A DNA stretch of 64,000 bases, from contig NZ_CP120233.1 of the NCBI RefSeq assembly GCF_030012985.1, positions 4,645,001 to 4,709,000 on the forward strand, given 5' to 3'. Origin of the DNA: Microbulbifer sp. VAAF005. Its GTDB lineage: Bacteria; Pseudomonadota; Gammaproteobacteria; Pseudomonadales; Cellvibrionaceae. The first letter of the stretch is position 1, and every line of letters begins with the position of its first letter. The position numbers and the translations under genes were made by a program. This document shows positions 4,113 to 28,303 of the stretch, piece after piece. The notes under the pieces were generated by a model. It did no database searches, was not told where the DNA came from, and saw only the letters and a program-made list of their open reading frames with translations.

Positions 4113-4629
4113 ACTGAACCTCGGAATTCCCGCAAGAGATTAGCTCAAACTTAAATCTATTATTCGTTACGAAAGGGCGAAGTAGGAGTACTTTACTTCC
4201 TTACTTCTACCTTATGACGAGTTTACCAGATTGGATAATTATACTGGCTGCAATTTCTCACCATGTTGGTCAGTATCTACTGTGCTGTGGGGCGGGGCAG
4301 ACAGTAAGTGCTTTATATGGGTAGATAATCGACTACCAATTAATAGTTTTCACCTATTTAGGTGATCTTGCTGATAGTTTTTGGTTTCTCCACCGCTATT
4401 GCCGCCATGTCTGTGGAGGCAGACGTGCCAAGAGTGCCGGTGGGCAAGGCTGCAAGGGCAAGTATTAATCTAACTTATCTATGCGTGGCACCAATCGCGC
4501 TGGGAAGCTATAGTCCGGTTTTTAACTTGGGTGATAAATAGTATTAGCCCGGGTAACGATATTGTTGGTCCAATTAATCGAATTCATACTGCCCCGGAAG
4601 GGCATAGAATGACTGAAGGTGTTTCAATA
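4113..4629. other. Divergent intergenic region between ydbH and pepN
   Basis: 517 bp with no credible gene. It must hold the promoters for the leftward ydbH operon and rightward pepN. An in-frame extension of pepN upstream to 4531 exists but does not resemble a PepN N-terminus. I could not assign a -35/-10 pair or a regulator site with confidence. Confidence 0.4.
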
Positions 4630-7260: not shown

Positions 7261-7273
7261 AATAAATGCCCGC

Positions 7274-7304
7274 TTGGGGTATGCTGGACATACCCCATTT
7301 TCTT
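7274..7304 (+). terminator. Bidirectional terminator between pepN and the histidine phosphatase gene
   Basis: Perfect 8-bp stem GGGGTATG/CATACCCC with a 5-nt loop (7276-7296), followed by ATTTTCTT on the plus strand, between convergent genes. Confidence 0.75.
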
Positions 7305-7851
7305 ATAGAATTTTGTTATCTTTTTCTTCGCCTAGCTGGACTAAATGTAGCTTGTTTCCATCATTTTTTAGCTCAGTGATTGAAGTGTAATCGGGCCTAA
7401 ACTGTTGTACTTTTTGGTGGTTTCGGATATGTGCAACAACTGAATTGATGACCATAAAATGGCAGAAGATAAAGGTGTCCTCTGAAAGACTTTCCAAATA
7501 CCTGATTATTCCATCGCGCCAATCTTTTTGTTCTCTGTCACAGGGGTCCCACTCTCCAGTAAGTAATGTTCGTAACCAGGTTAGGCGTTGAGCTTTGGGT
7601 ATTTCCTCTGGTGTAGGTATTTCCGTCAGTGCATTTTCAATTACAACCTCTATATCCCAAACTTCGGCCAAGGGCTTTGCTGTTTGCTGTGCTCTGAGTT
7701 TGGGACTGCTTATTAATTGAACTTTCTCGAGTGTGGAAAGTTTTAGGGCTAGCTCTTCTGCCTGCTTGTAACCTTCGTCTGTGAGTATTGGATCGGGGAT
7801 GTGCTCCCCTTTCGCTGCTTCTCCATGCCTGATTAAAAAAATTCTTGCCAT
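7303..7851 (-). CDS. Histidine phosphatase family protein
   Basis: 182 residues beginning IFLIRHGEA, the phosphohistidine motif (LIRHG) of the histidine phosphatase (phosphoglycerate-mutase-like) superfamily. The second arginine region (SSPKLRAQQTA) follows, and a late histidine lies in IFCHFMVIN. SixA-type phosphohistidine phosphatases and small-molecule phosphatases share this layout, and the sequence does not decide between them. It ends at the shared terminator with pepN and begins 10 nt after the esterase gene, so the two are probably cotranscribed. Confidence 0.8.
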   Translation of the reverse strand: MARIFLIRHGEAAKGEHIPDPILTDEGYKQAEELALKLSTLEKVQLISSPKLRAQQTAKPLAEVWDIEVVIENALTEIPTPEEIPKAQRLTWLRTLLTGEWDPCDREQKDWRDGIIRYLESLSEDTFIFCHFMVINSVVAHIRNHQKVQQFRPDYTSITELKNDGNKLHLVQLGEEKDNKIL

Positions 7852-7861
7852 CTATGCCAAC

Positions 7862-9421
7862 CTAAAGATAACCATTCAACCTATCGTCGGGTATATGTTG
7901 CCATAAACTGAGAAGCTCTGGTGAGTTAAACGCCCTGGCTGAGGGATGATTGCCAAATCGCTTACTGTGTTTTCCTGAAAACTCTGGCCAATCATTGCCG
8001 GGTTTCCCTGTTTCAGCAAAATTCAGCCAAGCTTGTTGCATTGATGCACTTAATAAATGGGGGTTTTCTTCAGCACCATATAGTGTTTTCAAGGACTGAT
8101 CGCTATGGGTTCCAAATACATAGCCAAGCTCAACGGCGTGACAAGCCCCCAGTAAAGGCTGTGCAGCGAGAGGTTGCGCAAAGTGATAGTGATAGTTTTC
8201 CCCCTGATGGTTTTGTAGGTGTCTCAGCCCAGGCAAGGTGAATACCATATCAGTGAGCAAGAGGTTCCAGGCTCGGCTCCATTCTGGCCAGGGGTTGTCT
8301 GTCATTTTTTTTGCTAGTTGATAGTAATGCCTGAGTAAGGGCTTTAATTCGGACTCTGGAATAAGCCATTCCAAGTGAGTACATATTTGCCGGTAGTCCA
8401 TGTTAAAGCTTTCAGGGTTTATAGCACTGAAAAGATTCCATTCCTCCAAATTGTTCCCTAACAAAAGGGATGTTTGGTGTGTCGGGGAGAGTTTTTTTCC
8501 AGGGGAAAAAAGGTCTCTGTCTGCGACAGGTTTAAATGGCAGTTGCCCCCATTTTGCTGTCATAGACGTGTCAGAGAGTATTGCTTTTTGGGTTTGCAGA
8601 AGAAGTTTGGTTGGACAATTTTTTAGTGAGATGCCACCAGAGATTTTCTCAAATTTATGAATGAAAGTCTTACCAACATGGTTAGCGCTTTGCTGGGAGT
8701 GAGAGGCTCTTGGGTGCCCACTTTGGACAATAGCACGCCGTATAAGACCTTTACATTGTGGAGTTTCAAGTAAGGAGGCAATACTCATTGCCCCGGCTGA
8801 TTCGCCAAAAAGAGTGATATTTTTTGGATCTCCGCCAAATGCTGAGATATTTTTCCGAACCCATTGTAGGGCGGCTATTTGATCTAAAAGCCCTTCATTG
8901 CCGGTTGATGGTATATCACTAATATCCTTTAGACGCAGAAATCCCAGTGCGCCTAATCGGTAGTTTATAGTGACAACAATTGTCCGACCGCTAGCTGCCA
9001 AGTATTTACCATTGTAAATTTCTTGGCATCCTGATCCCATGTAAAAAGAGCCGCCATGAACCCAAAACATCACTGGCAGCTTTTTTCCTTGCGACATTGC
9101 GGGAGAGAATACATTCAAATAGAGGCATTCCTCTCTTTCAGGAAGATTCCCATTTTGATCTCGAACTTCCATTAAGGTGGATGAGTTTTGCGCAGCTGGT
9201 GATCCAAAACTATGTGCTTGGAAAGGGTTTTTCCAGCGGTCCAACTCTTGCGGCGGTAACCAACGTAAATTTCCCACAGGAGGGAGGGCGTAGGGGATAC
9301 CCAAGAATTTATATACGCCAGTTTCCTCATCTGTAGTTCCGATGATTGGCCCGGCAGGCGTATCAACAACAGGTGTAGGTTTTTTGTTTAAGTGCCTGCC
9401 AATTTCCGGGTCTGTAGTCAT
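7862..9421 (-). CDS. Type B carboxylesterase (alpha/beta hydrolase)
   Basis: 519 residues of the carboxylesterase/cholinesterase family, which hydrolyses carboxylic esters. The nucleophile elbow GESAGAMS is at about residue 205, the N-terminal motif DTPAGPIIGTTDE and FLGIPYALPPVG are typical, and the oxyanion segment WVHGGSFYMGSG is present. The acid and histidine (GACHAVELGYVFG) are visible near the C-terminus. The ATG at 9421 is preceded by AGGAAG at a good distance, so the upstream in-frame extension to 9577 is not used. No signal peptide is seen. Substrate unknown. Confidence 0.88.
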   Translation of the reverse strand: MTTDPEIGRHLNKKPTPVVDTPAGPIIGTTDEETGVYKFLGIPYALPPVGNLRWLPPQELDRWKNPFQAHSFGSPAAQNSSTLMEVRDQNGNLPEREECLYLNVFSPAMSQGKKLPVMFWVHGGSFYMGSGCQEIYNGKYLAASGRTIVVTINYRLGALGFLRLKDISDIPSTGNEGLLDQIAALQWVRKNISAFGGDPKNITLFGESAGAMSIASLLETPQCKGLIRRAIVQSGHPRASHSQQSANHVGKTFIHKFEKISGGISLKNCPTKLLLQTQKAILSDTSMTAKWGQLPFKPVADRDLFSPGKKLSPTHQTSLLLGNNLEEWNLFSAINPESFNMDYRQICTHLEWLIPESELKPLLRHYYQLAKKMTDNPWPEWSRAWNLLLTDMVFTLPGLRHLQNHQGENYHYHFAQPLAAQPLLGACHAVELGYVFGTHSDQSLKTLYGAEENPHLLSASMQQAWLNFAETGKPGNDWPEFSGKHSKRFGNHPSARAFNSPELLSLWQHIPDDRLNGYL

Positions 9422-9694
9422 TTGTAACTTCCTAATCTTGCTGAAGTTAGCACGAAAACCGTTTTTCTCCTGCCGCTGCCTAACTCCTCCTTGAAAAGGT
9501 TTTGAATTACGTCCATACAAAAGTAGTGCGCGTAAAAACGTACTGGCGTAATTGTTTTTATGGAGGGAAATTAGCAAGGCGATGTATTAGTGAATCTAGT
9601 CACGGATGGGCTCAAAGTGGGGTATTTTCCGTCTTTAAGCTCAGGCCATGAACTGTGTATTTAGGAAGTTGCACCGTTTGAAGTTGGTGAGAGC

Positions 9695-12600
9695 ATGATT
9701 GCGAAAATCTTTGACAAATCCACGGGCTCTATCGATGAGCGATCACTGGAGGGGCTATCATTGTCCTCTCCTGGTCTAGTCGAAATGCCCGCAGATCCAG
9801 AGGATATTGCGTCTTTTGAAAAAGACGGAGTAGACCTTGTAATTGTTTTAAAGTCTGGTCAGGTCATTATCATTTCAGGGTTCTACCTGTTGGATGAAGA
9901 TGGCGACCATAGTGAGCTGGTGCTAACTGGGGCAGAAGAGCCCCTTATGTTAGCTTCTAATGGAGATTTAATTTCTGCCTTTGCGGCGGCTGGTGGTGCA
10001 TCGTATCCTGCACCAGCTCCAGCTAGCCCTGGTTTCTCTTGGTGGATTCCTGCATTAATTGCCCTTGGAGTTGTTGTTATTGCTATTGCGGCTAATGATG
10101 ACGATGACAATGATGGCGATCGCTTCTTTATCCCCGATTCTGATGCAGATGCCGACTCGGACTCGGACTCCGACTCTGATAGCGACTCGGATTCTGACTC
10201 TGACAGTGACTCGGATTCTGACTCCGACTCTGACAGCGATTCGGATTCTGACTCTGACAGTGACTCGGATTCTGACTCTGACAGTGACTCGGATTCCGAC
10301 TCTGACAGTGACTCGGATTCTGACTCTGACAGTGACTCGGATTCCGACTCTGACAGTGACTCGGATTCTGACTCCGACTCTGACAGCGATTCGGATTCTG
10401 ACTCTGACAGTGACTCGGATTCTGACTCCGACTCTGACAGTGATTCGGATTCTGACTCTGACAGTGACTCGGATTCCGACTCTGACAGTGACTCGGATTC
10501 TGACTCTGACAGTGATTCGGATTCTGACTCCGACAGTGACTCGGATTCCGACTCTGACAGTGATTCGGATTCTGACTCCGACTCTGACAGCGATTCGGAT
10601 TCTGACTCTGACAGTGACTCGGATTCTGACTCCGACTCTGACAGTGATTCGGATTCTGACTCCGACTCTGACAGTGACTCGGATTCCGACTCCGACTCTG
10701 ACAGTGATTCGGACTCTGACTCCGACTCTGACAGTGATTCGGATTCTGACTCCGACTCCGACTCTGACAGTGACTCGGATTCCGACTCCGACTCTGACAG
10801 CGACTCGGATTCCGACTCTGACAGTGATTCGGATTCTGACTCCGACTCCGACTCTGACAGTGACTCGGATTCTGACTCCGACTCTGACAGCGATTCGGAT
10901 TCTGACTCTGACAGTGACTCGGATTCTGACTCCGACTCTGACAGCGACTCGGATTCCGACTCTGACAGTGATTCGGATTCTGACTCCGACTCCGACTCTG
11001 ACAGTGACTCGGATTCTGACTCCGACTCTGACAGTGATTCGGATTCTGACTCCGACTCTGACAGTGATTCGGATTCTGACTCCGACTCTGACAGTGATTC
11101 GGATTCTGACTCCGACTCTGACAGTGACTCGGATTCTGACTCCGACTCTGACAGCGATTCGGATTCTGACTCTGACAGTGATTCGGATTCTGACTCCGAC
11201 TCCGACTCCGACTCTGACAGTGACTCGGATTCTGACTCCGACTCTGACAGCGATTCGGATTCTGACTCTGACAGTGACTCGGATTCTGACTCCGACTCTG
11301 ACAGTGATTCGGATTCTGACTCTGACAGTGACTCGGATTCTGACTCCGACTCTGACAGCGACTCGGATTCCGACTCTGACAGTGATTCGGATTCTGACTC
11401 CGACTCCGACTCCGACTCCGACTCCGACTCCGACTCTGACAGTGATTCGGATTCTGACTCCGACTCTGACAGTGATTCGGATTCTGACTCCGACTCTGAC
11501 AGTGACTCGGATTCTGACTCCGACTCTGACAGTGACTCGGATTCTGACTCCGACTCTGACAGCGATTCGGATTCTGACTCTGACAGTGACTCGGATTCTG
11601 ACTCCGACTCTGACAGTGACTCGGATTCTGACTCCGACTCTGACAGTGATTCGGATTCTGACTCTGACAGTGACTCGGATTCTGACTCCGACTCTGACAG
11701 TGACTCGGATTCTGACTCCGACTCTGACAGTGATTCGGATTCTGACTCCGACTCTGACAGCGATTCGGATTCTGACTCTGACAGTGACTCGGATTCTGAC
11801 TCCGACTCCGACAGTGATTCGGATTCTGACTCCGACTCTGACAGTGATTCGGATTCTGACTCTGACAGTGACTCGGATTCTGACTCTGACAGTGACTCGG
11901 ATTCTGACTCCGACTCTGACAGTGATTCAGATTCTGACTCTGACAGTGACTCGGATTCTGACTCCGACTCTGACAGCGATTCGGATTCTGACTCTGACAG
12001 CGACTCCGATGCAGATGTTGATATTGACATAAATATCGATATTGACATCGATATTGATATCGACATCGGTACCATCATCATCAATATTGGAACTGGTTCC
12101 AATGACGCTGATGCTCTGGATTACGGGCTCTCTTCTACGCCAGAGACTGGAGTAGAAATGGTGGATGATGATTCTGGTACGGAGATGGATTCGCTATCTA
12201 TCCCAGATTCTGACTCTGACAGTGATTCGGATTCTGACAGTGATTCGGATTCTGACAGTGACTCGGATTCTGACAGTGATTCCGATTCTGACAGTGACTC
12301 GGATTCCGACTCCGACTCTGATAGTGATTCGGACTCTGACAGCGATTCGGATTCTGACAGTGACTCGGATTCTGACAGTGACTCGGATTCCGACTCCGAC
12401 TCTGACAGTGATTCGGACTCTGACAGTGACTCGGATTCCGACTCCGACTCCGACTCTGATTCCGACTCCGACTCTGACAGTGATTCGGATTCTGACAGTG
12501 ACTCGGATTCCGACTCCGACAGTGATTCGGACTCCGATGCAGATGTTGATATTGATATAAATATCGATATTGATATCGACATCGATATCAACATTGACAC

Positions 12601-13192
12601 CATCATCATCAACATTGGAGCGGATTCTAATGAATCTGATGCTCTGGATTATGGGCCGACCTCTGCGCCTGAGACTGGAGCAGATATGTTGGGCGATGAT
12701 TCGGACGCTGATGCTGATTCGGACGCTGATGCTGATGCTGATGCTGATGCTGATGCTGATGCTGATGCTGATTCGGACGCTGACGCTGACGCTGATTCGG
12801 ACTCTGATGCCGATGCTGACTCCAGCATTGACATAGATATCAATATCGACATTGACATCTCAATTGATATCGATATTGACACTATCATCATCAATATTGG
12901 AACAGATGGTGGCGTCGGATACGAAGGTATCCTGGATATTGGTGCCGCTGCAGAGACGGATATCGATATGCTGGATAGCGGTTCCGACTTGAGTCTTGAT
13001 GACCTATTAGAATCTGCGAGCAGTGATGCTCAAATATTCGATCCTGTTGGAGATGAGGTCGGCATAGATGCCAGCCAAATTCCTAGTGAGGCAATAGGTG
13101 ATATTGAGGCGCTGGCGGCAACTGATAATGCAGTAGCGTTTGATGATCCTGTCGGAGATATGTGGCAACAAAATGGCTTGAGTGACACTTAG
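9695..13192 (+). CDS. Giant Ser-Asp repeat surface adhesin with BapA-type N-terminal module
   Basis: 1165 residues. Residues 1-95 match the BapA prefix-like/LapA retention-module pattern, with [20 protein letters not shown] then DHSELVLTG. An AAAG motif at residues 97-100 resembles the site cut by LapG in LapA-type adhesins. A Pro/Ala linker and a hydrophobic segment (115-133) follow. Then come about 310 SD dipeptides (149-772) and two further modules with Asp-Ile strands. The C-terminal 80 residues include SLDDLLESA, a plausible type I secretion signal. No RTX nonapeptides are seen. The gene precedes a terminator and then the type I secretion operon, its likely exporter. Function as a biofilm or surface adhesin is inferred. 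Confidence 0.8.
10139..12007 (+). repeat. Ser-Asp coding repeat, block 1 (about 310 dipeptides)
   Basis: About 1.86 kb built from 6-nt units coding Ser-Asp. Codon choice shows higher-order units of 24 and 30 nt that end in an AGT or AGC serine codon (for example a unit starting GACTCGGATTCTGACTC). Every unit is a multiple of six bases, so gains or losses keep the frame. This length is at risk of collapse in assembly. Confidence 0.95.
12008..12093 (+). repeat. Asp-Ile module 1 of the adhesin
   Basis: Codes for [18 protein letters not shown] and then a GTIIINIG turn. The same module follows each of the three acidic repeat blocks (also 12536-12620 and 12824-12900), each time followed by a short acidic linker; the first two linkers share DALDYG and PETG. 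The alternation of Asp and Ile suggests an edge beta strand. Confidence 0.85.
12207..12535 (+). repeat. Ser-Asp coding repeat, block 2 (about 54 dipeptides)
   Basis: A shorter block of the same 6-nt repeat. It uses 18-nt and 24-nt higher-order units ending in AGT or AGC, followed by the second Asp-Ile module. Confidence 0.95.
12536..12620 (+). repeat. Asp-Ile module 2 of the adhesin
   Basis: Second copy of the [14 protein letters not shown]...TIIINIG module, with different synonymous codons and one Gly-to-Asp change relative to module 1. Confidence 0.85.
12703..12823 (+). repeat. Asp-Ala/Asp-Ser coding repeat, block 3
   Basis: A third acidic block where most serines are replaced by alanine (GCTGAT units), followed by the third Asp-Ile module at 12824-12900. 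Confidence 0.9.
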
Positions 13193-13220
13193 ATCTGAAA
13201 GCTAAACATTAACTTAATTA

Positions 13221-13245
13221 CCGGGCCGTAAGGCCCGGTTTTTTT
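13221..13245 (+). terminator. Terminator after the adhesin gene
   Basis: Perfect stem CCGGGCC/GGCCCGG with a GTAA loop, then seven T. It separates the adhesin from the secretion genes, which therefore need their own promoter in 13246-13318 or partial read-through. Confidence 0.92.
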
Positions 13246-13318
13246 GGCTAGACTTTTGTAGCCACTCTTCAAACCGAGTCGTTAAAAGAGTGTTTTACCT
13301 CCCAGTAATTACTGATAA

Positions 13319-14758
13319 GTGAATATAGTGGAAGTGTTTAAACAACTATGGAAAATACCATTTGCAGTTTTTTTGGTATTTTGGGCGCTCGTTGTGGACG
13401 CCGATATTTTTAGTTCATCTCCCTCTGCTGAAGTAATTAGCCCAAGTAATATGGACATAGAGGCTAATAGCTCATTAAAGAAAATGTCTTTTCGGGAGTA
13501 TGAGGAAGGAATTAAGCGAATGGAACTCAACATGCTTGAGGTGGTACATCAAGCGGTTGGGTGGCACCCATTGATCGCAGAAGCCATTGGTAATCTCTAC
13601 CAACAGAGGCAGGGTGTTCGAGCTGCACGGTCTGGCTACTTTCCCCAACTGAGTGCTGGCATTGTAGCGGGGCAGGATTCCGAATATAAAAATGAGGGGG
13701 ATGGGCATGCGTTCCAAGTGAATATCTCTCAAATGGTTTACGATTTTGGCAAAGTGTCTAGTAATGTTGATTTTGCCAAGGCTGGAGTACAACGATCTCA
13801 AGCAGAAGTTCTTCAGTCCATTGATGAGGTTGCAAGGAGGACTGCACGAGCAGCCATTGAAGTGCAGCGTTATCAGTCATTGCTAATAACATCTGATGCG
13901 CAAGTGCAAGGCGTATCTGCTATTGCCCAGCTTGTACAAATTCGAAAAGAACGCGGGGTTAGTTCCCGTTCCGATGTTTTACAGGCCCAGTCTAGAGTCG
14001 ATGCTGCACAAGCATCAAAACAACAAGTAGAGGCTTTGCTGCGTCGATGGCGTAGCACATTGCAAAATCTAACCGGCTTCGAATCTCCATTTCGGGTTGC
14101 TATGTATGTTCCTGAGGATGTGGCTCAAGCTTGTGATGTTGTGTCGTTTGATTTGTCGTCAGTGCCTGATGTACTTATTGCTGAGGCATCTCGGGCTGAG
14201 GCTGAGGCACAGTTAAAGTCAGCAAAGGCCAATACATGGCCCACACTTACACTCGATGGCAATGTAAATCAGTATTTAGATCAAAACTATGTCGATGCCA
14301 ATGCGCTTGATGATAATGAAAAAGCTATTTTCTTTAATGTTTCGATGCCTTTATACCAGGGAGGAAAGATATCTGCAGGAAGAGAGGGAGCCAGTTATGC
14401 CCTTTCATCGGCCGATGCTGCCAGAGACTCGGCACAGTTATCAGTAACCCAAAAGTATCGTGAAGCACAGGAAGAAGCAGAGGGTTTAATGCGCAGCTTG
14501 AGTGCCCTCAGTGCCAGGGAAAGCGCAATAGCTGAAACGAGGGACTTATACAAACAGCAATATGCCACTCTCGGAACGCGGACCCTAATTGACTTGTTAA
14601 ATTCCGAACAAGAGCTTCACCTTGCTCGCCAGGAAAAAAATAATACAATCTTTGATTTGCATCTTCTTAAAATAGATTGTCTTCACAGCCGTGGCGGTTT
14701 GCGGGAAGCTTTCAAGCTTGATGGAACTGAAATTCAGGGTGTGGAGGTGTTGCCTTGA
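13319..14758 (+). CDS. TolC family outer-membrane channel of a type I secretion system
   Basis: 479 residues of the outer membrane efflux protein family. The export tunnel is built from repeated long helices; the pattern MVYDFGKVSSNVDFAKAGV and, in the second half, VSMPLYQGGKISAGREGASYAL is diagnostic (AggA/LapE-like). The N-terminus has a signal-peptide-like stretch (KIPFAVFLVFWALVVDA). The start is a GTG at 13319; other GTG codons at 13328 and 13334 are possible. The stop overlaps the TTG start of the ABC exporter, so translation is coupled. Confidence 0.88.
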   Translation: MNIVEVFKQLWKIPFAVFLVFWALVVDADIFSSSPSAEVISPSNMDIEANSSLKKMSFREYEEGIKRMELNMLEVVHQAVGWHPLIAEAIGNLYQQRQGVRAARSGYFPQLSAGIVAGQDSEYKNEGDGHAFQVNISQMVYDFGKVSSNVDFAKAGVQRSQAEVLQSIDEVARRTARAAIEVQRYQSLLITSDAQVQGVSAIAQLVQIRKERGVSSRSDVLQAQSRVDAAQASKQQVEALLRRWRSTLQNLTGFESPFRVAMYVPEDVAQACDVVSFDLSSVPDVLIAEASRAEAEAQLKSAKANTWPTLTLDGNVNQYLDQNYVDANALDDNEKAIFFNVSMPLYQGGKISAGREGASYALSSADAARDSAQLSVTQKYREAQEEAEGLMRSLSALSARESAIAETRDLYKQQYATLGTRTLIDLLNSEQELHLARQEKNNTIFDLHLLKIDCLHSRGGLREAFKLDGTEIQGVEVLP

Positions 14759-16953
14759 GTGAGAGTCAGATAGAAAATTCTGATGGTGGCAAAAGTTCAT
14801 CTGTTAATTCAGAAAACACTTCTGCTGACTTCGCTCCCTGGTGTGAAGCAATCATTTCCATTGCAAGGCATTATCGAATTGATTGTTCTTCTGAGAGAGT
14901 GCGAATAGCTGGAAACTGGGGAGGCTGTACTTCTACTGAAAGTGTTGTTCGGCAGATGGCTCGGCAGGCTGGGCTTAGCGTAAAATTTTGCCCCTTCAGT
15001 GAATCTGTAATCAATTCCTGGCGCATGCCGCTGGTCGCTCAGATGGTGGACGGTCAGTTAGTTGTTATAGACTCCGTCGCTAAAGAAAATCAGTTAAGTG
15101 TTATCTACTGTGGAGATCAAGGATTAAAGAGCACGGTCCCTCTGGATGAGTTAAGAAATAGTATTCTAAGCTTGGCAGTATTTCGCCCCAGACGGACGGC
15201 AACTGACTCTCGTGTAGATGACTATGTCAAGGCTGGAGATCAGCACTGGTTTCGTAGAATTGTCCTTCGGGATTTAAAGCCTTATTTCCATGTAATGATC
15301 GCTACAACAATTGCTAATTCTTTAGCTTTGGCTGGAATTGTTTTCTCGAAACAAGTTTATGACAGGGTGATACCTGCCGAGTCTTTTCCAACTCTTTATG
15401 TGCTTTTTAGCGGTGTTGTTGTTGCGATAATTTTTGATTTCATTATGCGAACTATGCGGGTTAGGGTAACAGACTTACTGGGAAAGCGGGCTGATATTCG
15501 CATGTCGGACTTGGTCTTTGGCCATGCTATTCGAGTTAAAGATCAAGCAAGACCAAAGTCAACCGGTACATTTATATCGCAAATTCGTGATCTTGAACGA
15601 ATAAGAGAGCTATTTACGTCTTCCACAGTTTTAGCTCTCGCAGATTTACCCTTCTTTATTCTTTTTCTATTTGTTATGTGGTGGGTTGCTGGGAGTTTGG
15701 CACTGATACCACTGGTTGCGGTATTTATGTTGATTATTCCGGGACTACTTCTTCAGCCTAAACTCGCGAAGCTATCAAAGGAATCAATTAAAGAAGGGGC
15801 GTTGCGTAATGCGATGTTGATTGAGACAGTTCAAGGGCTGGAAGATATAAAAGCCATGCAGGCAGAACAGCGCTTTCAGGGACAGTGGAACCATTTCAAT
15901 GCTATTACCGCAGAGTCGAGTCTAAAACTTCGTTATATTGTTGGAGTATTGCTGAGCTGGACTCACAATGTGCAGTCGTCAGTTTTTGCTGTAGTTGTAT
16001 TGTTCGGGGCGCCAATGGTAATGGCCGGTGATATGACAACAGGAGCACTGGTTGCAGCTTCTATTCTTGGGTCACGGATGATGTCGCCAATGGCAAATAT
16101 CACTCAGGTATTAAGCCGTTGGCAGCAAGCTCGGTTTGCAATGAAGGGAATTGATCAAATTATGCAGCTACCGGTAGATAACCCGGAAGATGAAAAGAAA
16201 GTACAGAAGTCTGCTATTCAGGGAAACTACCATTTTAAGCAGGCGGTCTATTACTATGGTGATGAATCATCTGAGCCTGCTTTAGTTATTCCCGAGTTGA
16301 AGATTCAACAAGGGGAAAGAGTTGCCATTTTAGGCCGAAATGGCTCAGGCAAGTCAACTTTATTACATGCCTTGTCAGGGTATATTGAGCCAACCCGTGG
16401 TCAATTGCGGTTGGATGATGTAAGTCTGACACATATTGATCCTGCAGACGTTAGGCGAGATGTTTCCCTTCTCAGCCAAAAGACAGGCTTATTTCACGGT
16501 ACTATCTATGAGAACCTGGTCTTAGGTGCTCCTTATGCCAGTGATGAAGAAATTATTTTTGCATTAGAGATGAGCGGTGCTAAGTCCTTTGTCAGTAAGC
16601 TTTCGAAAGGTTTAGGCTGTATGATTCAAGAGGGTGGTTATGGATTGTCTGGAGGGCAAAAACAATCCCTGTTGCTTGCTAGGATTCTACTGCGCCAACC
16701 GAATGTACTTTTACTAGATGAACCTACCTCTGCATTAGATGAAGCTACTGAGAAGCAATTTATCCAAGCATTATCAGAGTGGAGTGCCGAGAGGACAGTC
16801 GTAATTGCAACTCATAGAACCAGCATTCTCAGCTTTGCAGAGCGAATACTTGTATTGGATAGTGGGCGAGTTGCACTTGATGAGCCAAAAGAAAAAGCAC
16901 TGTCTATTTTGTCCAGACCAAAAGGTGCAAAAAAGGGTGAAAAAGTTTCCTAG
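14755..16953 (+). CDS. Type I secretion ABC exporter with inactive C39-like domain (LapB/HlyB type)
   Basis: 732 residues. Residues about 20-140 form a C39-peptidase-like domain, which in HlyB/LapB proteins is proteolytically inactive. About 170-450 is the transmembrane region and 480-732 the ATPase. Walker A (GRNGSGKST) is near residue 527, the signature LSGGQKQ near 631, and Walker B plus D-loop (LLLDEPTSALDE) near 650-662. The start is TTG overlapping the upstream TGA, with GGAGGT 6 nt before it. It should energise export of the SD-repeat adhesin straight across both membranes; the substrate link is by neighbourhood. Confidence 0.9.
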   Translation: MSESQIENSDGGKSSSVNSENTSADFAPWCEAIISIARHYRIDCSSERVRIAGNWGGCTSTESVVRQMARQAGLSVKFCPFSESVINSWRMPLVAQMVDGQLVVIDSVAKENQLSVIYCGDQGLKSTVPLDELRNSILSLAVFRPRRTATDSRVDDYVKAGDQHWFRRIVLRDLKPYFHVMIATTIANSLALAGIVFSKQVYDRVIPAESFPTLYVLFSGVVVAIIFDFIMRTMRVRVTDLLGKRADIRMSDLVFGHAIRVKDQARPKSTGTFISQIRDLERIRELFTSSTVLALADLPFFILFLFVMWWVAGSLALIPLVAVFMLIIPGLLLQPKLAKLSKESIKEGALRNAMLIETVQGLEDIKAMQAEQRFQGQWNHFNAITAESSLKLRYIVGVLLSWTHNVQSSVFAVVVLFGAPMVMAGDMTTGALVAASILGSRMMSPMANITQVLSRWQQARFAMKGIDQIMQLPVDNPEDEKKVQKSAIQGNYHFKQAVYYYGDESSEPALVIPELKIQQGERVAILGRNGSGKSTLLHALSGYIEPTRGQLRLDDVSLTHIDPADVRRDVSLLSQKTGLFHGTIYENLVLGAPYASDEEIIFALEMSGAKSFVSKLSKGLGCMIQEGGYGLSGGQKQSLLLARILLRQPNVLLLDEPTSALDEATEKQFIQALSEWSAERTVVIATHRTSILSFAERILVLDSGRVALDEPKEKALSILSRPKGAKKGEKVS

Positions 16954-16975
16954 ATAATAGATTGGAGTAGGTACG

Positions 16976-18232
16976 ATGTCATTTCCTGGTGATTCTGATT
17001 TGATATCAAATCAGCGGCGAGAGCCAAAACGTGTTGCTCTCCTTGATATTGATTCTCAGAATGATGAAAAACAGTATGGGGATGATGTTGATGATGCGTC
17101 TTTAGTACGTTCTGGAAGAATAGTTTGGATGTTTTTTCTTTTACTTGCCGCATTAGGTACCTGGTCATATCTTGCCAAGGTTGATGAAGTCTCCTCTGGT
17201 AGTGGTAAGGTAGTTCCCACCTCACGTTCTCAGGTTATTCAGTCTCTGGAAGGCGGAATACTTGCAGAGCTAAAAGTTTCTGAGGGCGATATCGTAGAGC
17301 AAGGCGAAGTATTGGCCCAGCTAGATCCTACAAAGTTACGTTCAAATGTAGAAGAAATATCGGCTCGTTATAGGGCTGCATTGGCTAGTGTTGCACGCCT
17401 GAGTGCAGAGGTGAATAAGACACATTTAAAATTTCCAGAAGAGCTTGCCCAGCATGGTGAGTTAATTGCAAAAGAGAAAAAATTATTCGACACGCGGCAA
17501 AGTGGACTGGCTGAATCTTTGAAGGGGTCAAAAGAAACCTTAAAACTGGTCAATAAAGAGTTGTCAATAACGAGCTCATTAGTTGATTCTGGTGCCGCCA
17601 GCAGCGTTGATCTTTTACGTTTGCAGAGACAAAAATCAGAACTGGAAACAAAGATCCATGAAATTCGGTCTATGTATATGGTGAAAGCTCGCGAGGAGTT
17701 AGCTAACTTTAGTGCTGAAGTTGAGGCCCTCTCTTCCGTAATGGAGGGCCGATCCGATTCACTAACTAGGCTTACCCATAAATCTCCAGTAAGGGGAATC
17801 GTTAAAGCAATTGAAGTGACCACAATTGGTGGTGTTATACCTCCGAACGGTAAGATTATGGAGATAGTACCACTTGATGACCAGCTTCTAATTGAAGCTA
17901 AAATTTCTCCAAGGGATGTCGCATTTATTCGACCGGGTCAGGCAGCAAAAGTAAAAATAACTGCTTATGATTATGCCATCTATGGAGGTTTGGATGGTGA
18001 AGTGACAACCATATCTCCTGATACAATTCAGGATGAACTTGTACCGGGGGAGTATTACTACAAGGTCTTTATTCTTACCAAATCTGACTCTCTGGTTAAT
18101 AAAATCGGCACTAAATTTTCAATCGTTCCAGGTATGATTGCAACAGTGGATATTAAAACTGGATCAAAAACTATTTTTGACTATTTGATGAAACCAATTA
18201 ATAAGGCAAATGAAGCTCTTCGGGAGAGATAG
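16976..18232 (+). CDS. HlyD family type I secretion periplasmic adaptor
   Basis: 418 residues. A cytoplasmic N-terminus is followed by one membrane segment (about residues 44-64). A split lipoyl domain (SSGSGKVVPTSRSQVIQSLEGG and later VRGIVKAIEVTTIGGVI) flanks a long coiled coil, and a C-terminal beta domain follows. This is the LapC/HlyD membrane-fusion pattern that bridges the ABC exporter and the TolC channel. ATG at 16976 with GGAGTAGG upstream; 22 nt after the exporter gene. Confidence 0.92.
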   Translation: MSFPGDSDLISNQRREPKRVALLDIDSQNDEKQYGDDVDDASLVRSGRIVWMFFLLLAALGTWSYLAKVDEVSSGSGKVVPTSRSQVIQSLEGGILAELKVSEGDIVEQGEVLAQLDPTKLRSNVEEISARYRAALASVARLSAEVNKTHLKFPEELAQHGELIAKEKKLFDTRQSGLAESLKGSKETLKLVNKELSITSSLVDSGAASSVDLLRLQRQKSELETKIHEIRSMYMVKAREELANFSAEVEALSSVMEGRSDSLTRLTHKSPVRGIVKAIEVTTIGGVIPPNGKIMEIVPLDDQLLIEAKISPRDVAFIRPGQAAKVKITAYDYAIYGGLDGEVTTISPDTIQDELVPGEYYYKVFILTKSDSLVNKIGTKFSIVPGMIATVDIKTGSKTIFDYLMKPINKANEALRER

Positions 18233-18245
18233 TGGTATATTTCTA

Positions 18246-19157
18246 ATGCTTAAAACAAGAATATTTGCTTCTGTGCTTTCTTTTTTTATTGGATTGTTCG
18301 GCTGTTCTTCCTTAGTGCAGGCTAATTCACGTCCGGTTACCCTCTCTGCTCAAATAACAATACAGAATACTTCAGGACAGGATGCTATAGGATATATTCA
18401 AAGATTGTCTATCCCTGTGGAGCATGGTTTGCAGCAGTCCTTAAAGGAGGTTAGGTATGATTACTCTGAGGGGCTTACTTATAGAAAGCATAAGAAGGGT
18501 GACTCCAAATACTTGGAATTTACGCTGGATATCCCTGCTGGTGCAACAGTTACCAGAAGAATTGATTTTGATTTAATACTATCGTCTTATAATTATGCTC
18601 AGATACCTCGGGGACGTGAGCCCTTTCCCGATAAAAGGTATCTACAGTCGTCGAAGTATATTGAATCTGACTCTTTGCCAATTAAGAAGTTATCTTTAGA
18701 GATACAGAATACTTTTATGGATGAAGAGGGCCGTTTGCGAGCAGCTTTCTTGATGCCGCAAGCAATGATTGAATATAAAATTCAACCAACAAAGGGAGCT
18801 TTGGCTGGGCTTGAATCGCGCGAGGGGGATTGTACTGAGTATGCTTCACTTTTTGTTGCGCTTGCACGATCAATGGGGTATCCGGCACGGACAACTTCTG
18901 AATTTCTATTTACAAAAAGAAAAATTTTTAAACAGCCTAACCATCATGCAGCTGAAGTTTATACTAACGGTCGCTGGATCCCAGTTGATCCTAATTTGGC
19001 GCAGGAAGGCCGTTTTGGCTATGGTTTTGGTAAGGGAAAAATCAGTAAAATTACCCTAACTAGAGATTTTACCTGGGTCTGGTCAAATTTATGGCCAAAG
19101 AGCTTTAAAGGCAATATAGACAAAACCAAGGTATCTATAGAATGGAGCATAAGGTAG
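18246..19157 (+). CDS. Transglutaminase-fold lipoprotein linked to the type I secretion operon
   Basis: 303 residues. The N-terminus is a lipoprotein signal with lipobox LFGC. Residues 190-250 are a transglutaminase-core domain with an apparently complete triad: Cys196 in EGDCTEYA, His233 or 234 in NHHAAEVY, Asp248 in PVDPN. The start at 18246 is chosen because it gives this signal peptide; no strong ribosome-binding site is seen, and an in-frame ATG at 18210 would overlap the adaptor gene. It lies 14 nt after the adaptor gene, so it belongs to the operon. LapG, which releases LapA-type adhesins, is also a transglutaminase-fold cysteine protease, but this core looks like the generic transglutaminase family. 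Protease, cross-linker or amidase are all possible. Confidence 0.8.
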   Translation: MLKTRIFASVLSFFIGLFGCSSLVQANSRPVTLSAQITIQNTSGQDAIGYIQRLSIPVEHGLQQSLKEVRYDYSEGLTYRKHKKGDSKYLEFTLDIPAGATVTRRIDFDLILSSYNYAQIPRGREPFPDKRYLQSSKYIESDSLPIKKLSLEIQNTFMDEEGRLRAAFLMPQAMIEYKIQPTKGALAGLESREGDCTEYASLFVALARSMGYPARTTSEFLFTKRKIFKQPNHHAAEVYTNGRWIPVDPNLAQEGRFGYGFGKGKISKITLTRDFTWVWSNLWPKSFKGNIDKTKVSIEWSIR

Positions 19158-19284: not shown

Positions 19285-22200
19285 TCACTCTATTTCAATT
19301 GCTTCCCCCATTTTCTGTAGCTTATCCAGCAAGGAGGGAATATTGCCAAAATCAGAATCTCTTCTGGACCCTTTTAAGAGAACAAGGTCAGAATTTTGTA
19401 AAAACTCAGCCAGGTAAGTAACCAGAGGTGGAGCTTCAGAGAAGTGAGGGCCGAGTATTTCAGCTGGCAGAACTGCCCGGAGATAATTCATTTCATCCCC
19501 ATGGGTGACTACCCAGTTAACTTTACTGTCCAGAAGTGGACCAGCCAAGCTTTCATGTAGTTCCTTTGCTTTTTCACCCAGGTGGACGATGCGACCTAAA
19601 ACGGCTATTTTACGTCCACCTTTATGGGGGGCCGCCTCAGCAAATACTGAGAATGCGTTGAGCATTGAGCTGACGGTTGCATTCCAGCTATCATCTATCA
19701 AGCTGATAGATTTATCGTGTATTTTGATATCAGCGCGTTGCAGGCGCCCCTCGTCTAGGCTAATTTCCTGAAGTCGCATCGCTGCTTCATCAAGGTCTCT
19801 GTCCAATGCATAAATTGCACAGATTGAAACGATAGCATTGTGTAACATCCCTATACTTGGGGCTGGTACCCGGAGCTCAAGTTCTCGTTTTGGAAACTTC
19901 AATTGTACCCAGCTACCACTCTCTTCATTTCGTACTCGAAGAACTTGTACCTCTGCATTTGAACTTTCGCCAAAGATAATGACTCTTTTCGCATGTTTTT
20001 TAGCTTTTTCCAGAATGTACTCAAAGCACTTGAGGTGTTCCCCAATAATTGCAATAGATGCCCCTGTTAAACCATCAAAAATACGCGATTTCCATTTTGC
20101 AGTATCTTCGACACTTTTTACCAAGTGACTAGTTTGAGACATACCAATTTCTGTAATTAAAGAGATAGTAGGTTTTACTTGTCTAGTTATCGGTCCTCGT
20201 TTTACCCAAAGTGCACTTTGTGCAACTTCAATAACTGCAACTTCATGATCTTGATTAAGGCTGGCCATCATGGAGGGAGCCCCTACGCGAGAATTATAGT
20301 TTCCAATGCTGGAAAGAATTTTTTCTCTTGGGCCTAACATTTGGGTAATCATTTTCAAAGTTGTGGATTTACCTGCGGTTCCGGTGATAGCTATTACTTC
20401 ACCGTGAAATCGATCTCTTGCAGCAAGTCCAAGCTCAATGATTACCTTGAGAGGATCATCCACTAAGAGTAAAGGGAAACCATCCGGAAGGCCTGAAACT
20501 GGTTTTGCTACAATTGCTCCGGCAATTTTGTGGGCGAATGAGGGTAATTTTTTGTGATAATCCCATAACTTTGTAGGCTGTTTAGAGCTGCGCTCGTGAT
20601 ATGTTCTATCTAATTTGGTATGAGCAACGAATAGTATTGGATCAAGTGATTCTTCGATAAAGCTGCTTCCTGAAATTACACTGCGTACGAACCATCCTTT
20701 TGGAGGTGGAGTAATCCACTTTCCCCCAGATAAGGCCTCAAGCTGCTCTGCATCCCAAGTTTGTCCAGGGTGATGCTGAAATACAATTGGAGGAAATTTG
20801 GTGTTGTATACGGGAATTTTTGGCCTTGTTGGCAGTGTTTTATTTGCTACGTTGAATTGCGTAATCATCCCCCCAACTAAAACTGGCTTAATCTGTGACT
20901 CATTTGAAATCAGCCCAACTAGAAGCTGTAGATGAATAGGCTCAATTTCACTTTTTGCCGGTGCGCGTAATCCATAGAGGTCACGATAGATAATTCCTGG
21001 TTGCCATTTTGTGGTGGGTACTTGCCAATCACATGGGTCATGATCCATGGATTTTCCCCAATAAGGCATCGTTGTTTTCTTTATTGGCATAGCGCGGAAA
21101 TCGAGCCGATAGTCTTCCTCAACTTTTTGATCTGTAGTCCAAAATGATTCGACCCATAAAATTTGTCTTGATTTGATCTCTCTTGGATAGAATCTGACAC
21201 CTAGTAGTTGTAGAGGGCCACATTGAATAGGTGGAATGCGGGCGTCGATAGGTACAGCTTCAACGTGCCAATTAGATTTTAGCGGGCGAGGTTCATTGAT
21301 TGTCGTACGGTTATATTGAGTCTTGTATAAATGAGGTAGCTTGCGACTTTTTCGTGGGGGAGGTGATAGTAAAACAGACCCACTGAAATCCTCGTTAATA
21401 GCTAGCTTGGTATCTAAATCTGCACACATTTTGGCGAATCGTTCTGTAAGTTCTTTAGCCTTTTCACCGCTCAGTTGTTTACTAAATCCAAAGCCTACTC
21501 CTACCGGAGCGAAAGTTATTTTCTCGACACCCCTTTCACTAAGGTGCAATCGAAATATTCCACTGTCTGCAAGGTTTCGGCGAACGGCATCAAATAAGAG
21601 GTCTCCGGCATCGTGAATTATTGGCCTGTTTTGATAGACTTCAATACCCTGAAGGTTGTGCGCACTTGTGCCTAGGATGCCGTCAGCTCCAGCATCAACA
21701 ATGGCATGGCCTATGGCTATTTCATCTTCGCTGGGGGCTGGTTCCCTGTTTTTCCCCCAGTGCACGGCTACCAGCACTACATTTGCTTTTTTTCTCGCTG
21801 CTGTAATTCTTGGTAATAATGTGTCATACCACAGACTTGGCATTGTGAGTGGTAGGTGGGCACAGCCGGCTATAGTAGGGCCGGCGGCAAAATGGGGTTG
21901 GGTTGCATCGATAGAGAAAATTGCCACGTTTAGTGAACCTGCGGGCCTATAAACTGGTGTGAGGGCCTCTTCTATATTGGCGCCAGACCCACAATGGCCT
22001 ATACCAGTTGAATCAATCCAATGCCTTTGCTCGAGTAGAGCTTCAGGTCCGTAATCACCGCTGTGATTATTTGCAGTCGTTACTACATCTATACCCGCTT
22101 CTATCAGTACTGACAGCATCTCTGGGCGGGCCCGGTAATAGTAAGGTGAAGCTTCCCCTTTTTCAGCACCTTGTTCACCTTCAGTACCTACGACACATTC

Positions 22201-24054
22201 CAGGTTTATAACACTGATATCTGCATTCTTTAGTGCTGAGATGGTTCCAAGTACCTTTTCAACACCAAATTGTGCTGTCCGATAATGCTGTCTCCGGGAT
22301 AGATTGACATCGCCGCCCCAAGCTAACACCGGGAGTATATCTTGGGGTTGTAATGGCGGCTGATTTTCACTTTCAAGAGAATATTTCTCGTTTTTTTTAG
22401 TCATTTTTTGGGGTTTTAGTAGGAGTTTACGGTAAGCCACAAAGCCCGATAAGTAGTGTTCAACGTCATCGATACGCACTCTGAATGCGTGATGCCTAAT
22501 AAAATAGCTGCCTACAATTTTGGCTGGATTTTGAAAGAACATTGCAAATTCTGGCCAAAAGTAGCCATTCAGGAGATACATGGCACGCTTATGTAGTGCA
22601 CGATAGAAGTGTTCTAGATCGACTTGTTCGAGTAGATACTGGTATTCTGGGGACTCCTGTAGCCGACAGACCATTTTTTCAGCAGCCATCATTAGCTCAA
22701 GTAGAGTTGGAAATGTAGTAATCCTGTGTTCTACAAAGTCTAAGTGGCTGGAAAAGTTTCGAATACCGAATTGATAGTACTTTTCCTCAGGGCGGTATAG
22801 AGTCAGCTCATTTACGCAATAACTCAGCCAATGATCATGGGCTCTCCAATGGTTTGCCTGAATAAAGTATTCAAACGCTTTTTCTACTATGGTTAACCAT
22901 CGAGAATCTTTACTAAACCCGTAAAGGCGCATTAGGCCAAATGCGGCTTCGCCGTCGTAATAGATGATGCGGTGCTTGTCTTTCACATCCAAGCAGGGAT
23001 ATTCAAGTACATGAAAGAACTGACCGGTTTCGGAGTCCTGCATGAACTCGATACCCGTTGCCAGTTGCTTCATTAGTTCCGCATATTTCTGGGTATCCTC
23101 TACTTCGGAGAATTTTACAAGTGCCAATAGGGAAACAGCATTGCCGCCAAGCTTGATTTCCGAGTTTTCCTCCACAAGAAAAGCAGCTTCATCACCAGAG
23201 GGGAGGACAGCTGTTTTTATTAGCTCTGTGGTTAGATGGGTTAATGATCGCAATATGGCTTTTTCTAGTTCTTCTTCCCGCGTCACCTCCCATGCCTCAA
23301 TCATGGCGTAGGTACTACTTGCATGACGGAGGTTGTTGTAGGCCTGGATCTTTTTATCAAAGCAGGCATGCCAGCCATAGTGGAACCTTCCATTAGGTTT
23401 TACTTGTGTGCTCAGATAGCGGCTACCGCTTTCAATTAAATCGGTGACATTTTCAACGTCTAATTCATTGGTAATCCGGCGGCCAGCATTTAGACCTGGT
23501 CCATACAGATATACCGGTTCTTGATTCAACTCGCAAAAAATACCCAGCGTTGACAGAATAACAGCCGTGTTATTTTCTGAAAAATCGATCTCTGTTTGAG
23601 GTCCAAAACGTTTTTTGGCATAAGCAAGAAAATTATTCTCATTGATAATGACGTGTTTGACCTGATTGCCGCCATAGAGCATGGCATTGGCATTAAGTTC
23701 TTGCTCAAGAAATGCGATTTGACAATTTTCATCAAGGGCTAAGCCAAAACGGAAATAGGATCGCTTGGTTTCTGCAAGCACTTCTTCCAGGCCTGCGATG
23801 GTCATTATGCTTTTTCTAGTTACCCAGTCGACCCTCAACCAACAGGGCTTCATCTTGTTGGATTTGGTGGCTTTTTGTATGGATGTTGCAAGTTTCTGCC
23901 ACACATCCTTAAAACTATTTGCAGTCGCGTGCCGGACAATTGCACGTTGTTTAGCATCGCTAACTGAGAAGAAGATGGTGTATGGGGGACGTAGCCTAGT
24001 CAAAGCCTGCTCAACCTGAGCACGCACTTGAACGAGCATGTTGGATAGGGACAT
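19285..24054 (-). CDS. Giant fusion: helical domain, CapA-like metallophosphatase domain, Mur ligase
   Basis: 1589 residues, no signal peptide. Residues 1-200 are unassigned. About 200-540 look all-alpha with paired helices, like an alpha/alpha toroid. About 575-870 match the CapA/PGA_cap family (GGDVNLSR, NLECVV, ANNHSGDYG, VHWGKN, DAGDLLFDA). About 920-1080 may be a beta domain. About 1100-1589 are a MurF-like ligase with the ATP loop GTAGKSTT at 1223-1230, IGNYNSRVGAP and DDSWNATVSSM. CapB (Mur-ligase-like) and CapA are separate proteins in poly-gamma-glutamate synthesis; here both activities are in one chain. Making or modifying an acidic amide-linked polymer is an inference. It is convergent with the secretion operon and stands alone. 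Confidence 0.75.
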   Translation of the reverse strand: MSLSNMLVQVRAQVEQALTRLRPPYTIFFSVSDAKQRAIVRHATANSFKDVWQKLATSIQKATKSNKMKPCWLRVDWVTRKSIMTIAGLEEVLAETKRSYFRFGLALDENCQIAFLEQELNANAMLYGGNQVKHVIINENNFLAYAKKRFGPQTEIDFSENNTAVILSTLGIFCELNQEPVYLYGPGLNAGRRITNELDVENVTDLIESGSRYLSTQVKPNGRFHYGWHACFDKKIQAYNNLRHASSTYAMIEAWEVTREEELEKAILRSLTHLTTELIKTAVLPSGDEAAFLVEENSEIKLGGNAVSLLALVKFSEVEDTQKYAELMKQLATGIEFMQDSETGQFFHVLEYPCLDVKDKHRIIYYDGEAAFGLMRLYGFSKDSRWLTIVEKAFEYFIQANHWRAHDHWLSYCVNELTLYRPEEKYYQFGIRNFSSHLDFVEHRITTFPTLLELMMAAEKMVCRLQESPEYQYLLEQVDLEHFYRALHKRAMYLLNGYFWPEFAMFFQNPAKIVGSYFIRHHAFRVRIDDVEHYLSGFVAYRKLLLKPQKMTKKNEKYSLESENQPPLQPQDILPVLAWGGDVNLSRRQHYRTAQFGVEKVLGTISALKNADISVINLECVVGTEGEQGAEKGEASPYYYRARPEMLSVLIEAGIDVVTTANNHSGDYGPEALLEQRHWIDSTGIGHCGSGANIEEALTPVYRPAGSLNVAIFSIDATQPHFAAGPTIAGCAHLPLTMPSLWYDTLLPRITAARKKANVVLVAVHWGKNREPAPSEDEIAIGHAIVDAGADGILGTSAHNLQGIEVYQNRPIIHDAGDLLFDAVRRNLADSGIFRLHLSERGVEKITFAPVGVGFGFSKQLSGEKAKELTERFAKMCADLDTKLAINEDFSGSVLLSPPPRKSRKLPHLYKTQYNRTTINEPRPLKSNWHVEAVPIDARIPPIQCGPLQLLGVRFYPREIKSRQILWVESFWTTDQKVEEDYRLDFRAMPIKKTTMPYWGKSMDHDPCDWQVPTTKWQPGIIYRDLYGLRAPAKSEIEPIHLQLLVGLISNESQIKPVLVGGMITQFNVANKTLPTRPKIPVYNTKFPPIVFQHHPGQTWDAEQLEALSGGKWITPPPKGWFVRSVISGSSFIEESLDPILFVAHTKLDRTYHERSSKQPTKLWDYHKKLPSFAHKIAGAIVAKPVSGLPDGFPLLLVDDPLKVIIELGLAARDRFHGEVIAITGTAGKSTTLKMITQMLGPREKILSSIGNYNSRVGAPSMMASLNQDHEVAVIEVAQSALWVKRGPITRQVKPTISLITEIGMSQTSHLVKSVEDTAKWKSRIFDGLTGASIAIIGEHLKCFEYILEKAKKHAKRVIIFGESSNAEVQVLRVRNEESGSWVQLKFPKRELELRVPAPSIGMLHNAIVSICAIYALDRDLDEAAMRLQEISLDEGRLQRADIKIHDKSISLIDDSWNATVSSMLNAFSVFAEAAPHKGGRKIAVLGRIVHLGEKAKELHESLAGPLLDSKVNWVVTHGDEMNYLRAVLPAEILGPHFSEAPPLVTYLAEFLQNSDLVLLKGSRRDSDFGNIPSLLDKLQKMGEAIEIE

Positions 24055-25957: not shown

Positions 25958-25983
25958 CACGGGATACAGAACTTAAGGGCAAA

Positions 25984-26021
25984 AAAATACCCCCGCCAAC
26001 TCTGGTCGACGGGGGTATTTT
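25984..26021 (+). terminator. Bidirectional terminator between the MFS gene and fadH
   Basis: Perfect 11-bp stem AAAATACCCCC/GGGGGTATTTT with a 16-nt loop and T or A runs on both sides, placed between convergent genes. Confidence 0.93.
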
Positions 26022-26041
26022 ATTTTGTGACCGCTGGGAGA

Positions 26042-28102
<2,061 letters not shown>

Positions 28103-28303
28103 TTAGGGTTCATTTATGTATATGCAAAAAGGTGCATATCGTTGCCCAGCAGGATAACAAGACGGCCCACTGTGAAACAGTGACTTAACCGGTCGAATTC
28201 AGTGATCAATTACGGGCCCTTTTTAACCTTTATGCGTCCCATTCTCATCTATAAATAAAGTGTTTTTTAAGGGGTCCCTGTCTCGCCGTATACAGAGCCT
28301 CCC

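Follow-up and report, generated by a model that had tools for sequence, protein, structure and literature searches.

Gene content of the adhesin locus

We analysed a stretch of 64,000 nucleotides from Microbulbifer sp. VAAF005 (NZ_CP120233.1, positions 4,645,001 to 4,709,000 of the forward strand; hereafter the window), in which a serine-aspartate (SD) repeat adhesin is encoded together with a type I secretion system (T1SS), a transglutaminase-fold protein (TG) and a fusion of GtfC-like, CapA and MurF-like domains. The Microbulbifer genome that carries the window consists of one contig of 5.40 Mb and is referred to as G000, while the other G-numbers and the L-numbers denote the genomes and loci with which it was compared. 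The larger finding is a tie between adhesins with Asp-dipeptide repeats, the GtfC barrel family and peptide-ligase domains.

The first-pass annotation of this DNA had described a 1165-residue SD-repeat protein with a BapA-type N-terminal module and a complete type I exporter, and both descriptions stood up. The BapA_N module scores over its cut-off, and the outer membrane factor (OMF), the LssB-type ABC protein and the HlyD adaptor were all confirmed by profile (Table 1); with such a module and a complete T1SS, the protein classifies as a T1SS BapA_N adhesin. Hydrophobic segments similar to the one ahead of its repeats were seen by eye in other adhesin N-termini. Past residue 150 the window adhesin contains 38% Ser, which makes it the sole Ser-rich protein among the 15 complete adhesins of genomes with TG, the remaining ones having 2-5% Ser and 22-38% Ala over the same region. 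Judged from these compositions, the constant residue of the repeats is Asp, not Ser. A terminator-like stem-loop between the adhesin and OMF genes suggests that adhesin and exporter may be separate transcripts, with the proviso that pattern matches such as the one at 13220-13239 are no commoner in real than in shuffled sequence.

For the TG gene, 18246 is the better start. TG matches PF01841 only (63.9 bits, cut-off 23), so that the profile check proposed earlier turned out positive for this family, and both the profile match and the fold place the protein in the transglutaminase superfamily. The Cys-His-Asp core that had been read from the window sequence was borne out: 52 of the 54 TG rows in the alignment retain all of C196, H234 and D248, and the motifs that surround the triad are present in 20/20 Microbulbifer orthologs. 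The closest solved structure is 3isr, not LapG. The earlier description of TG as a lipoprotein had to be given up, since the lipobox Cys20 is not one of the four most frequent residues at that position among the 54 aligned rows and Ala-X-Ala-like signal peptidase I sites are visible by eye in the window protein and in several homologs. On these features, TG is probably a soluble periplasmic protein exported via Sec.

One possible role for such an enzyme would be to cross-link the adhesin itself in the classical way, through Gln and Lys. Past residue 150, the count in the window adhesin is 4 Gln and 0 Lys, and the 15 complete adhesins of TG genomes have 0 to 10 Lys in this region. Because Lys is scarce or absent there, we consider this role highly improbable.

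The next gene past TG, which lies beyond the region covered by the first-pass annotation, encodes the fusion. Its N-terminal domain (NDOM) has no Pfam match and is followed by CapA (PF09587) and then by a MurF-like ligase. Structure comparison predicts NDOM to be a sugar-epimerase-like barrel; the structural table of the GtfC-like domain holds no glycosyltransferase rows, which is not evidence against a glycosyltransferase fold, and a sequence search of the PDB with this domain gave no match. NDOM is 36-38% identical to four staphylococcal GtfC-family proteins, and 38% identical over 523 aa to the product of the S. haemolyticus gene after pls. The latter shares 69% identity with an S. epidermidis homolog, the same figure as is given for GtfC in the published work (PMC5230774). 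Membership of the GtfC family is thus assigned by similarity to the gene following pls, not to the GtfC sequence itself. The CapA domain (21589-22326) also matches MslH, a lasso-peptide C-terminal Trp epimerase (NF038314, 76 bits, cut-off 700), a resemblance hinting at an epimerase role.

Table 1. Coordinates of the features of the adhesin locus within the window
Feature	Position	Strand	Evidence
SD-repeat adhesin (Asp-dipeptide), 1165 aa	9695..13192	+	Open reading frame (ORF) and PF22783 match
BapA_N (PF22783) module, residues 4-91	9704..9967	+	66.5 bits, cut-off 27
AAAG motif, residues 97-100, precedes hydrophobic stretch	9983..9994	+	Sequence position
Hydrophobic segment ahead of repeats, residues 116-133, then Asp-rich sequence	10040..10093	+	Read from sequence
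SD run 1, uninterrupted, residues 155-772	10157..12010	+	
SD run 2, uninterrupted, residues 839-948	12209..12538	+	
Terminator-like stem-loop (13220-13239) and T tract, 3' of adhesin	13220..13246	+	Pattern match only
TolC-family outer membrane factor (OMF)	13319..14758	+	TIGR01844 over cut-off
LssB-type T1SS permease/ATPase (ABC)	14755..16953	+	TIGR03375, 789.9 bits, cut-off 693.1
HlyD-family adaptor	16976..18232	+	TIGR01843 over cut-off
Transglutaminase-fold protein TG, 303 aa, Cys196-His234-Asp248	18246..19157 (alternative start 18210)	+	PF01841
GtfC-CapA-MurF-like fusion, 1589 aa, convergent with TG gene	19285..24054	-	
Fusion N-terminal domain (NDOM), GtfC family; (alpha/alpha)6 barrel at residues 196-552	22375..24054	-	
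Fusion PGA_cap (CapA) domain, residues 577-822	21589..22326	-	187.9 bits, cut-off 27
Fusion Mur ligase middle and C-terminal domains, residues 1223-1564, P-loop GTAGKST at 1225	19363..20388	-	

TG tracks the fusion among Microbulbifer genomes with an adhesin

TG orthologs, defined at E <= 4.5e-78, are present in 20 of the 48 Microbulbifer genomes sampled, and some TG match at E <= 0.001 occurs in 23. BapA_N over cut-off was found in 28 of the 48, all 20 TG genomes among them. This co-occurrence with a BapA_N protein (20/20), taken together with the conserved triad, shows that TG was rightly described as a dedicated enzyme of a distinct family. A near-full-length fusion, i.e. a single match from query residues 1-3 to at least 1443, was detected in 23 of the 48 genomes: in all 20 TG genomes and in 3 of the 28 without TG. 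When the comparison is confined to the 28 genomes with BapA_N, TG is present in 20 of the 21 that have the fusion and in 0 of the 7 that do not (nominal Fisher p 7e-6; neither this value nor the linkage counts are corrected for descent).

Adhesin and exporter occur without TG in eight genomes (G005, G006, G007, G010, G012, G016, G027 and G020); in G020 they lie on two contigs that both end in repeats. On a tree of 29 Microbulbifer exporters, TG requires at least 5 changes, a number as low being obtained in 9 of 500 shuffles, and TG is therefore clustered without forming a single clade. The sister exporters of G041 and G020 differ in TG presence. Between hlyD and TG, G041 has two intervening genes, one CapA-Mur and one of the GtfC family. 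The OMF ORF of G011 (L203 1-1909) begins inside a run of N, so that any repeat gene upstream of it is unreadable.

The flanks of the locus (4531-9577 and 24692-29221) mark a cassette site common to several relatives, situated between pepN-sixA-carboxylesterase genes and an MFS or dienoyl-reductase-like gene. At this site a GtfC-like barrel protein was found alone in G031, G038, G040 and G044. Further along the window, the ORF at 44202-45188 resembles an IS110-type transposase when its sequence is read by eye.

Comparison with Lap-type release

The locus resembles the LapA/LapG/LapD and DvhA/DvhG/DvhD systems in that a T1SS adhesin with an N-terminal module is encoded with its exporter and a periplasmic transglutaminase-fold enzyme, and TG shares the Cys-His-Asp triad. 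A variant of the Lap release switch had accordingly been considered in the first-pass annotation; TG would then act in the periplasm, cutting the adhesin behind its N-terminal module and so freeing it from the surface. The AAAG motif to which this idea was tied does precede the hydrophobic stretch of the window adhesin, but it is not a conserved site. After identical rows had been dropped, [TA]AAG within residues 76-150 was found in 5 of 22 adhesin N-termini from TG genomes and in 0 of 13 from genomes without TG, while the looser [TAP]AA[GVS] occurred over the same residues in 6 of 22 and 3 of 13, respectively. AAAG at position 97 is limited to 2 of the 22, namely the window adhesin and that of the near relative G029. 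According to a published account (PMC13090378), LapG substrates carry DP ahead of [T/A/P]AAG, whereas the adhesins of TG genomes have no conserved motif of this kind; the sole DP in residues 1-130 of the window adhesin is at position 34, and no Asp-Pro stands just before its AAAG. This removes the main mechanistic clue for Lap-type cleavage, and would leave a cut at another site as a possibility.

Unlike LapG, TG belongs to PF01841 and not to PF06035. The latter profile gave no match to TG, nor any at E <= 0.001 in the whole complete genome of the window, while one control genome did give a match; PF16448 (LapD) gave none in this genome, yet control genomes gave none either. Three TG genomes (G019, G023 and G046) carry a PF06035 match over cut-off in addition to TG, adhesin and exporter are present without TG in 8 of the 28 genomes with BapA_N over cut-off, and one TG homolog bears RTX-like repeats (see below). 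Since, moreover, TG tracks the CapA-Mur fusion among adhesin genomes, motif conservation, family profile and phyletic pattern all leave the Lap switch unsupported, and we regard it as very unlikely.

An ATP-grasp partner in most TG genomes

An ATP-grasp-acylphosphatase protein was found at E < 1e-100 in 17 of the 20 TG genomes against 1 of the 28 others, and its gene comes right after TG in 14 of the 20. This gene of roughly 660-700 aa, 3' of TG in relatives, was tried as a candidate for LapD and rejected: the four members tested, three of the 14 and that of G016, have ATP-grasp and acylphosphatase domains. In G029 and G030 (more than 1 Mb from TG) and G043 (on another contig) the ATP-grasp genes are distant, and at 36-39% identity they may be paralogs. 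Weak matches near 1e-37 were obtained in G011 and G032, which lack TG. In some relatives a 2OG-Fe(II) oxygenase gene follows the ATP-grasp gene (L072 13109-13885; PF13759), and the 258-aa ORF that occupies the matching place at L081 13234-14010 is a putative second such gene.

The nearest NCBIfam entry to the ATP-grasp member tested for this purpose (L077) is cyanophycin synthetase, at 246.5 bits and hence below the cut-off of 877; a full cyanophycin synthetase architecture over the NCBIfam cut-off was not found. Cyanophycin synthetase itself combines ATP-grasp and Mur-ligase domains and builds amides on poly-Asp. The likeness lies in the pairing of ATP-grasp and Mur-ligase partners in 17 of the 20 TG genomes, with the Asp-rich chain as a candidate substrate. 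The systems differ in that the domains are here on separate proteins, the chain is made by the ribosome, the protein is exported, and the window species has no ATP-grasp part.

TG could also be a general processing protease or a peptidoglycan-anchoring enzyme that acts on the C-terminus, a linker or the cell wall, and not on amidated repeats. As this would leave the tracking of the CapA-Mur and ATP-grasp genes unexplained, we judge it unlikely.

Related loci beyond the genus

A scan of bacterial and archaeal genomes yielded 80 loci that were kept, among which seven outside Microbulbifer (L114-L120) have matches that start at or before about residue 28 of TG and run to its end. Two of these seven, from Gallionella and Microvirga, show the CapA-Mur/repeat association. 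In Gallionella, a CapA-Mur gene is followed by TG after a 2-nt gap, an SD-repeat protein with RTX-like repeats (identified by eye) is encoded alongside, and a neighbouring protein is weakly similar to the GtfC-like domain (E 5e-8). In Microvirga (L116 2742-9725), a 2327-aa fusion of a GtfC-like domain, two Mur ligases, an S11 D-Ala-D-Ala carboxypeptidase and CapA is followed by TG, and the contig also encodes a (DA)n protein, ABC and HlyD proteins and a second TG with C-terminal RTX-like repeats and no obvious signal peptide. These features of the Microvirga TG homolog (L121 9971-11350), read by eye, suggest that it is secreted by a type I system in its own right and works outside the cell. 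The homologs L117-L120 come from metagenome-assembled genomes (MAGs) of Planctomycetota, Verrucomicrobiota, Lentisphaerae and Spirochaetes. A class-wide search of 369 genomes detected TG at E <= 1e-20 in 5, the best match outside its own genome being 1.2e-29, and a plasmid search for TG gave weak matches only, in 4 records, none covering 80%.

The GtfC family was followed in 29 loci outside Microbulbifer, of which 15 were plasmid loci hand-picked for variety from 54 records and 14 came from 12 genomes within a sample of 398, some of the loci being short contigs. An Asp-rich repeat ORF, defined as at least 30% Asp over 60 residues, was present in 17 of these 29 loci, compared with 1 of 51 other loci from the above scan, which surround different transglutaminase-fold genes and are in many cases archaeal, and with 0 of 10 stretches taken from the same genomes, the minimum length in both control sets being 10 kb. 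Twelve of the 17 were on plasmid loci (12/15). In the most Asp-rich 60 residues of these ORFs, the leading dipeptide was DA in 12, SD in 4 and DG in 1. The loci belong to Gram-positive and Gram-negative bacteria of several phyla and classes. In staphylococci, members of the family follow pls, sdrF and an SdrD-B-like gene; the gene right after sdrF in an S. epidermidis record (L247 7854-9488), annotated as hypothetical, encodes a GtfC-family protein.

These loci bring to mind the staphylococcal Pls-GtfC/GtfD and Sdr-SdgA/SdgB systems, in which an Asp-dipeptide-repeat surface protein likewise has a GtfC-family gene alongside. Published studies describe gtfC as adjoining pls and report that gtfC and gtfD mutants change glycosylation of the SD repeats of Pls (PMC5230774), and mention two predicted glycosyltransferase genes upstream of sesJ (PMC4850167). 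In contrast to the staphylococcal loci, the window locus has GtfC in one protein with CapA and a Mur ligase, exports its adhesin through a T1SS and includes a TG, and no glycosyltransferase gene was noticed beside the fusion, although no family-wide search was made. The GtfC barrel resembles sugar epimerases; GtfC itself is annotated as a glycosyltransferase. A literature search, with subscription journals mostly outside its reach, gave no paper, among those listed, whose title or abstract opening places genes for a Mur ligase, CapA or ATP-grasp protein next to an Asp-repeat adhesin. It also found no paper that joins ATP-grasp, acylphosphatase and Mur ligase, none that joins an SD repeat with a Mur ligase, and none on serine-aspartate repeats with type I secretion in a marine setting. 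A survey of amidoligase gene neighbourhoods, reportedly made by Iyer and colleagues in 2009, may touch on parts of the present findings.

Poly-glutamate synthesis employs CapA and Mur domains, and the combination of a Mur-ligase and a CapA domain recalls poly-gamma-glutamate synthesis by PgsB/CapB and PgsA/CapA. TG and the ligases might make or trim a poly-gamma-glutamate-like capsule without touching the adhesin, their shared locus being a chromosomal hot spot; that the fusion or the barrel alone stays at the locus in genomes without adhesin would fit. The window differs from those systems in having a single fusion with a GtfC barrel, placed beside a repeat adhesin. Against a capsule, GtfC-family genes adjoin Asp-repeat surface proteins in several phyla and classes, and neither a membrane polymerase subunit like PgsC nor the gamma-glutamyltransferase of poly-gamma-glutamate systems was noticed, though no search was aimed at them. 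We think this explanation quite unlikely.

Proposed function of the locus

Amide formation by Mur and ATP-grasp ligases proceeds through activation of carboxylates, and a transglutaminase-fold enzyme requires an amide-like acyl donor. The Asp-repeat chain presents hundreds of carboxylates. Because the ligases make amides and Asp repeats offer no acyl donor until they are amidated, a TG that acts downstream of the ligases is coherent. We therefore tentatively propose that the locus serves to produce, export and modify an Asp-dipeptide-repeat adhesin, with TG acting after export on amide bonds made by the ligases, a proposal nearly as apt to be right as wrong. The fusion would attach amino acids or peptides through amide bonds, either to the repeats directly or to a sugar or polymer that they carry, the simplest site of amidation being the side chains of Asp, the constant repeat residue; in most TG-bearing relatives it would be assisted by the cyanophycin-synthetase-like ATP-grasp protein. 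The ligases would act in the cytoplasm, the adhesin would then leave via the LssB-type T1SS, and the Sec-exported TG would meet it outside the cytoplasm. Retention of the adhesin probably depends on the BapA_N and hydrophobic module at its N-terminus. By Cys acyl transfer, TG may work on the amides so as to cross-link, anchor or trim. Gene content, folds, motif conservation and genetic linkage are established; from them we infer that the repeats are the substrate in Gram-negative bacteria, which residue would be changed, the chemistry of the ligases, and a TG that either joins or cuts.

A more far-reaching version, which we also hold to be unlikely, would have poly(Asp-X) surface proteins, made by the ribosome, serve as the backbone of a peptidoglycan-like or cyanophycin-like polymer on the bacterial surface. 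Mur and ATP-grasp enzymes would add amino acids or short peptides to the side chains of Asp (or to sugars on them), CapA and the epimerase-like GtfC barrel would set the stereochemistry, and an exported TG would cross-link or trim these additions outside the cell.

A number of observations speak against the proposal that TG acts on amidated repeats. With regard to linkage in Microbulbifer, TG is also associated with BapA_N itself (20/20 TG genomes vs 8/28 others) and stands directly after hlyD in 19 of the 20 TG genomes, while the fusion and TG genes are convergent in the window and do not form one operon; the counts, as said, carry no correction for descent. The fusion is present without TG in G016, in G045 (match to 1443) and in G009 (to 1453, with two in-frame stops), the last two having no BapA_N match over cut-off. 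In the 7 adhesin genomes that lack the fusion, parts of it remain (GtfC-CapA, GtfC with Mur, or GtfC with CapA-ATP-grasp), and some modification may thus be going on there without TG. No ATP-grasp homolog was found genome-wide at E <= 1e-30 in the window genome, G021 or G023. Outside the genus, the loci L219 (where ATP-grasp genes are also present), L223 and L225 have a GtfC-CapA-Mur fusion but no TG, and the beta-proteobacterial L115 and the L117-L120 MAGs show no CapA-Mur, repeat protein or exporter set, some of these stretches being short. An Asp-rich ORF is missing from 12 of the 29 GtfC-family loci, and among those from the genome sample just 5 of 14 had one. Finally, the title of 3isr reads 'putative cysteine protease' and nothing more, so that ordinary peptide hydrolysis is possible, and GtfC, the one tested relative, was studied for sugar on Ser, not for an amide on Asp.

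As surface proteins, SD-repeat adhesins attract major interest, and a sugar on serine is the modification known for their repeats. The GtfC family, which lies behind one such modification, is here predicted to be sugar-epimerase-like and is joined or adjacent to peptide-ligase domains. If the repeats do carry amide-linked residues, their function would need rethinking, and this marine bacterium would offer a place to examine them by mass spectrometry.

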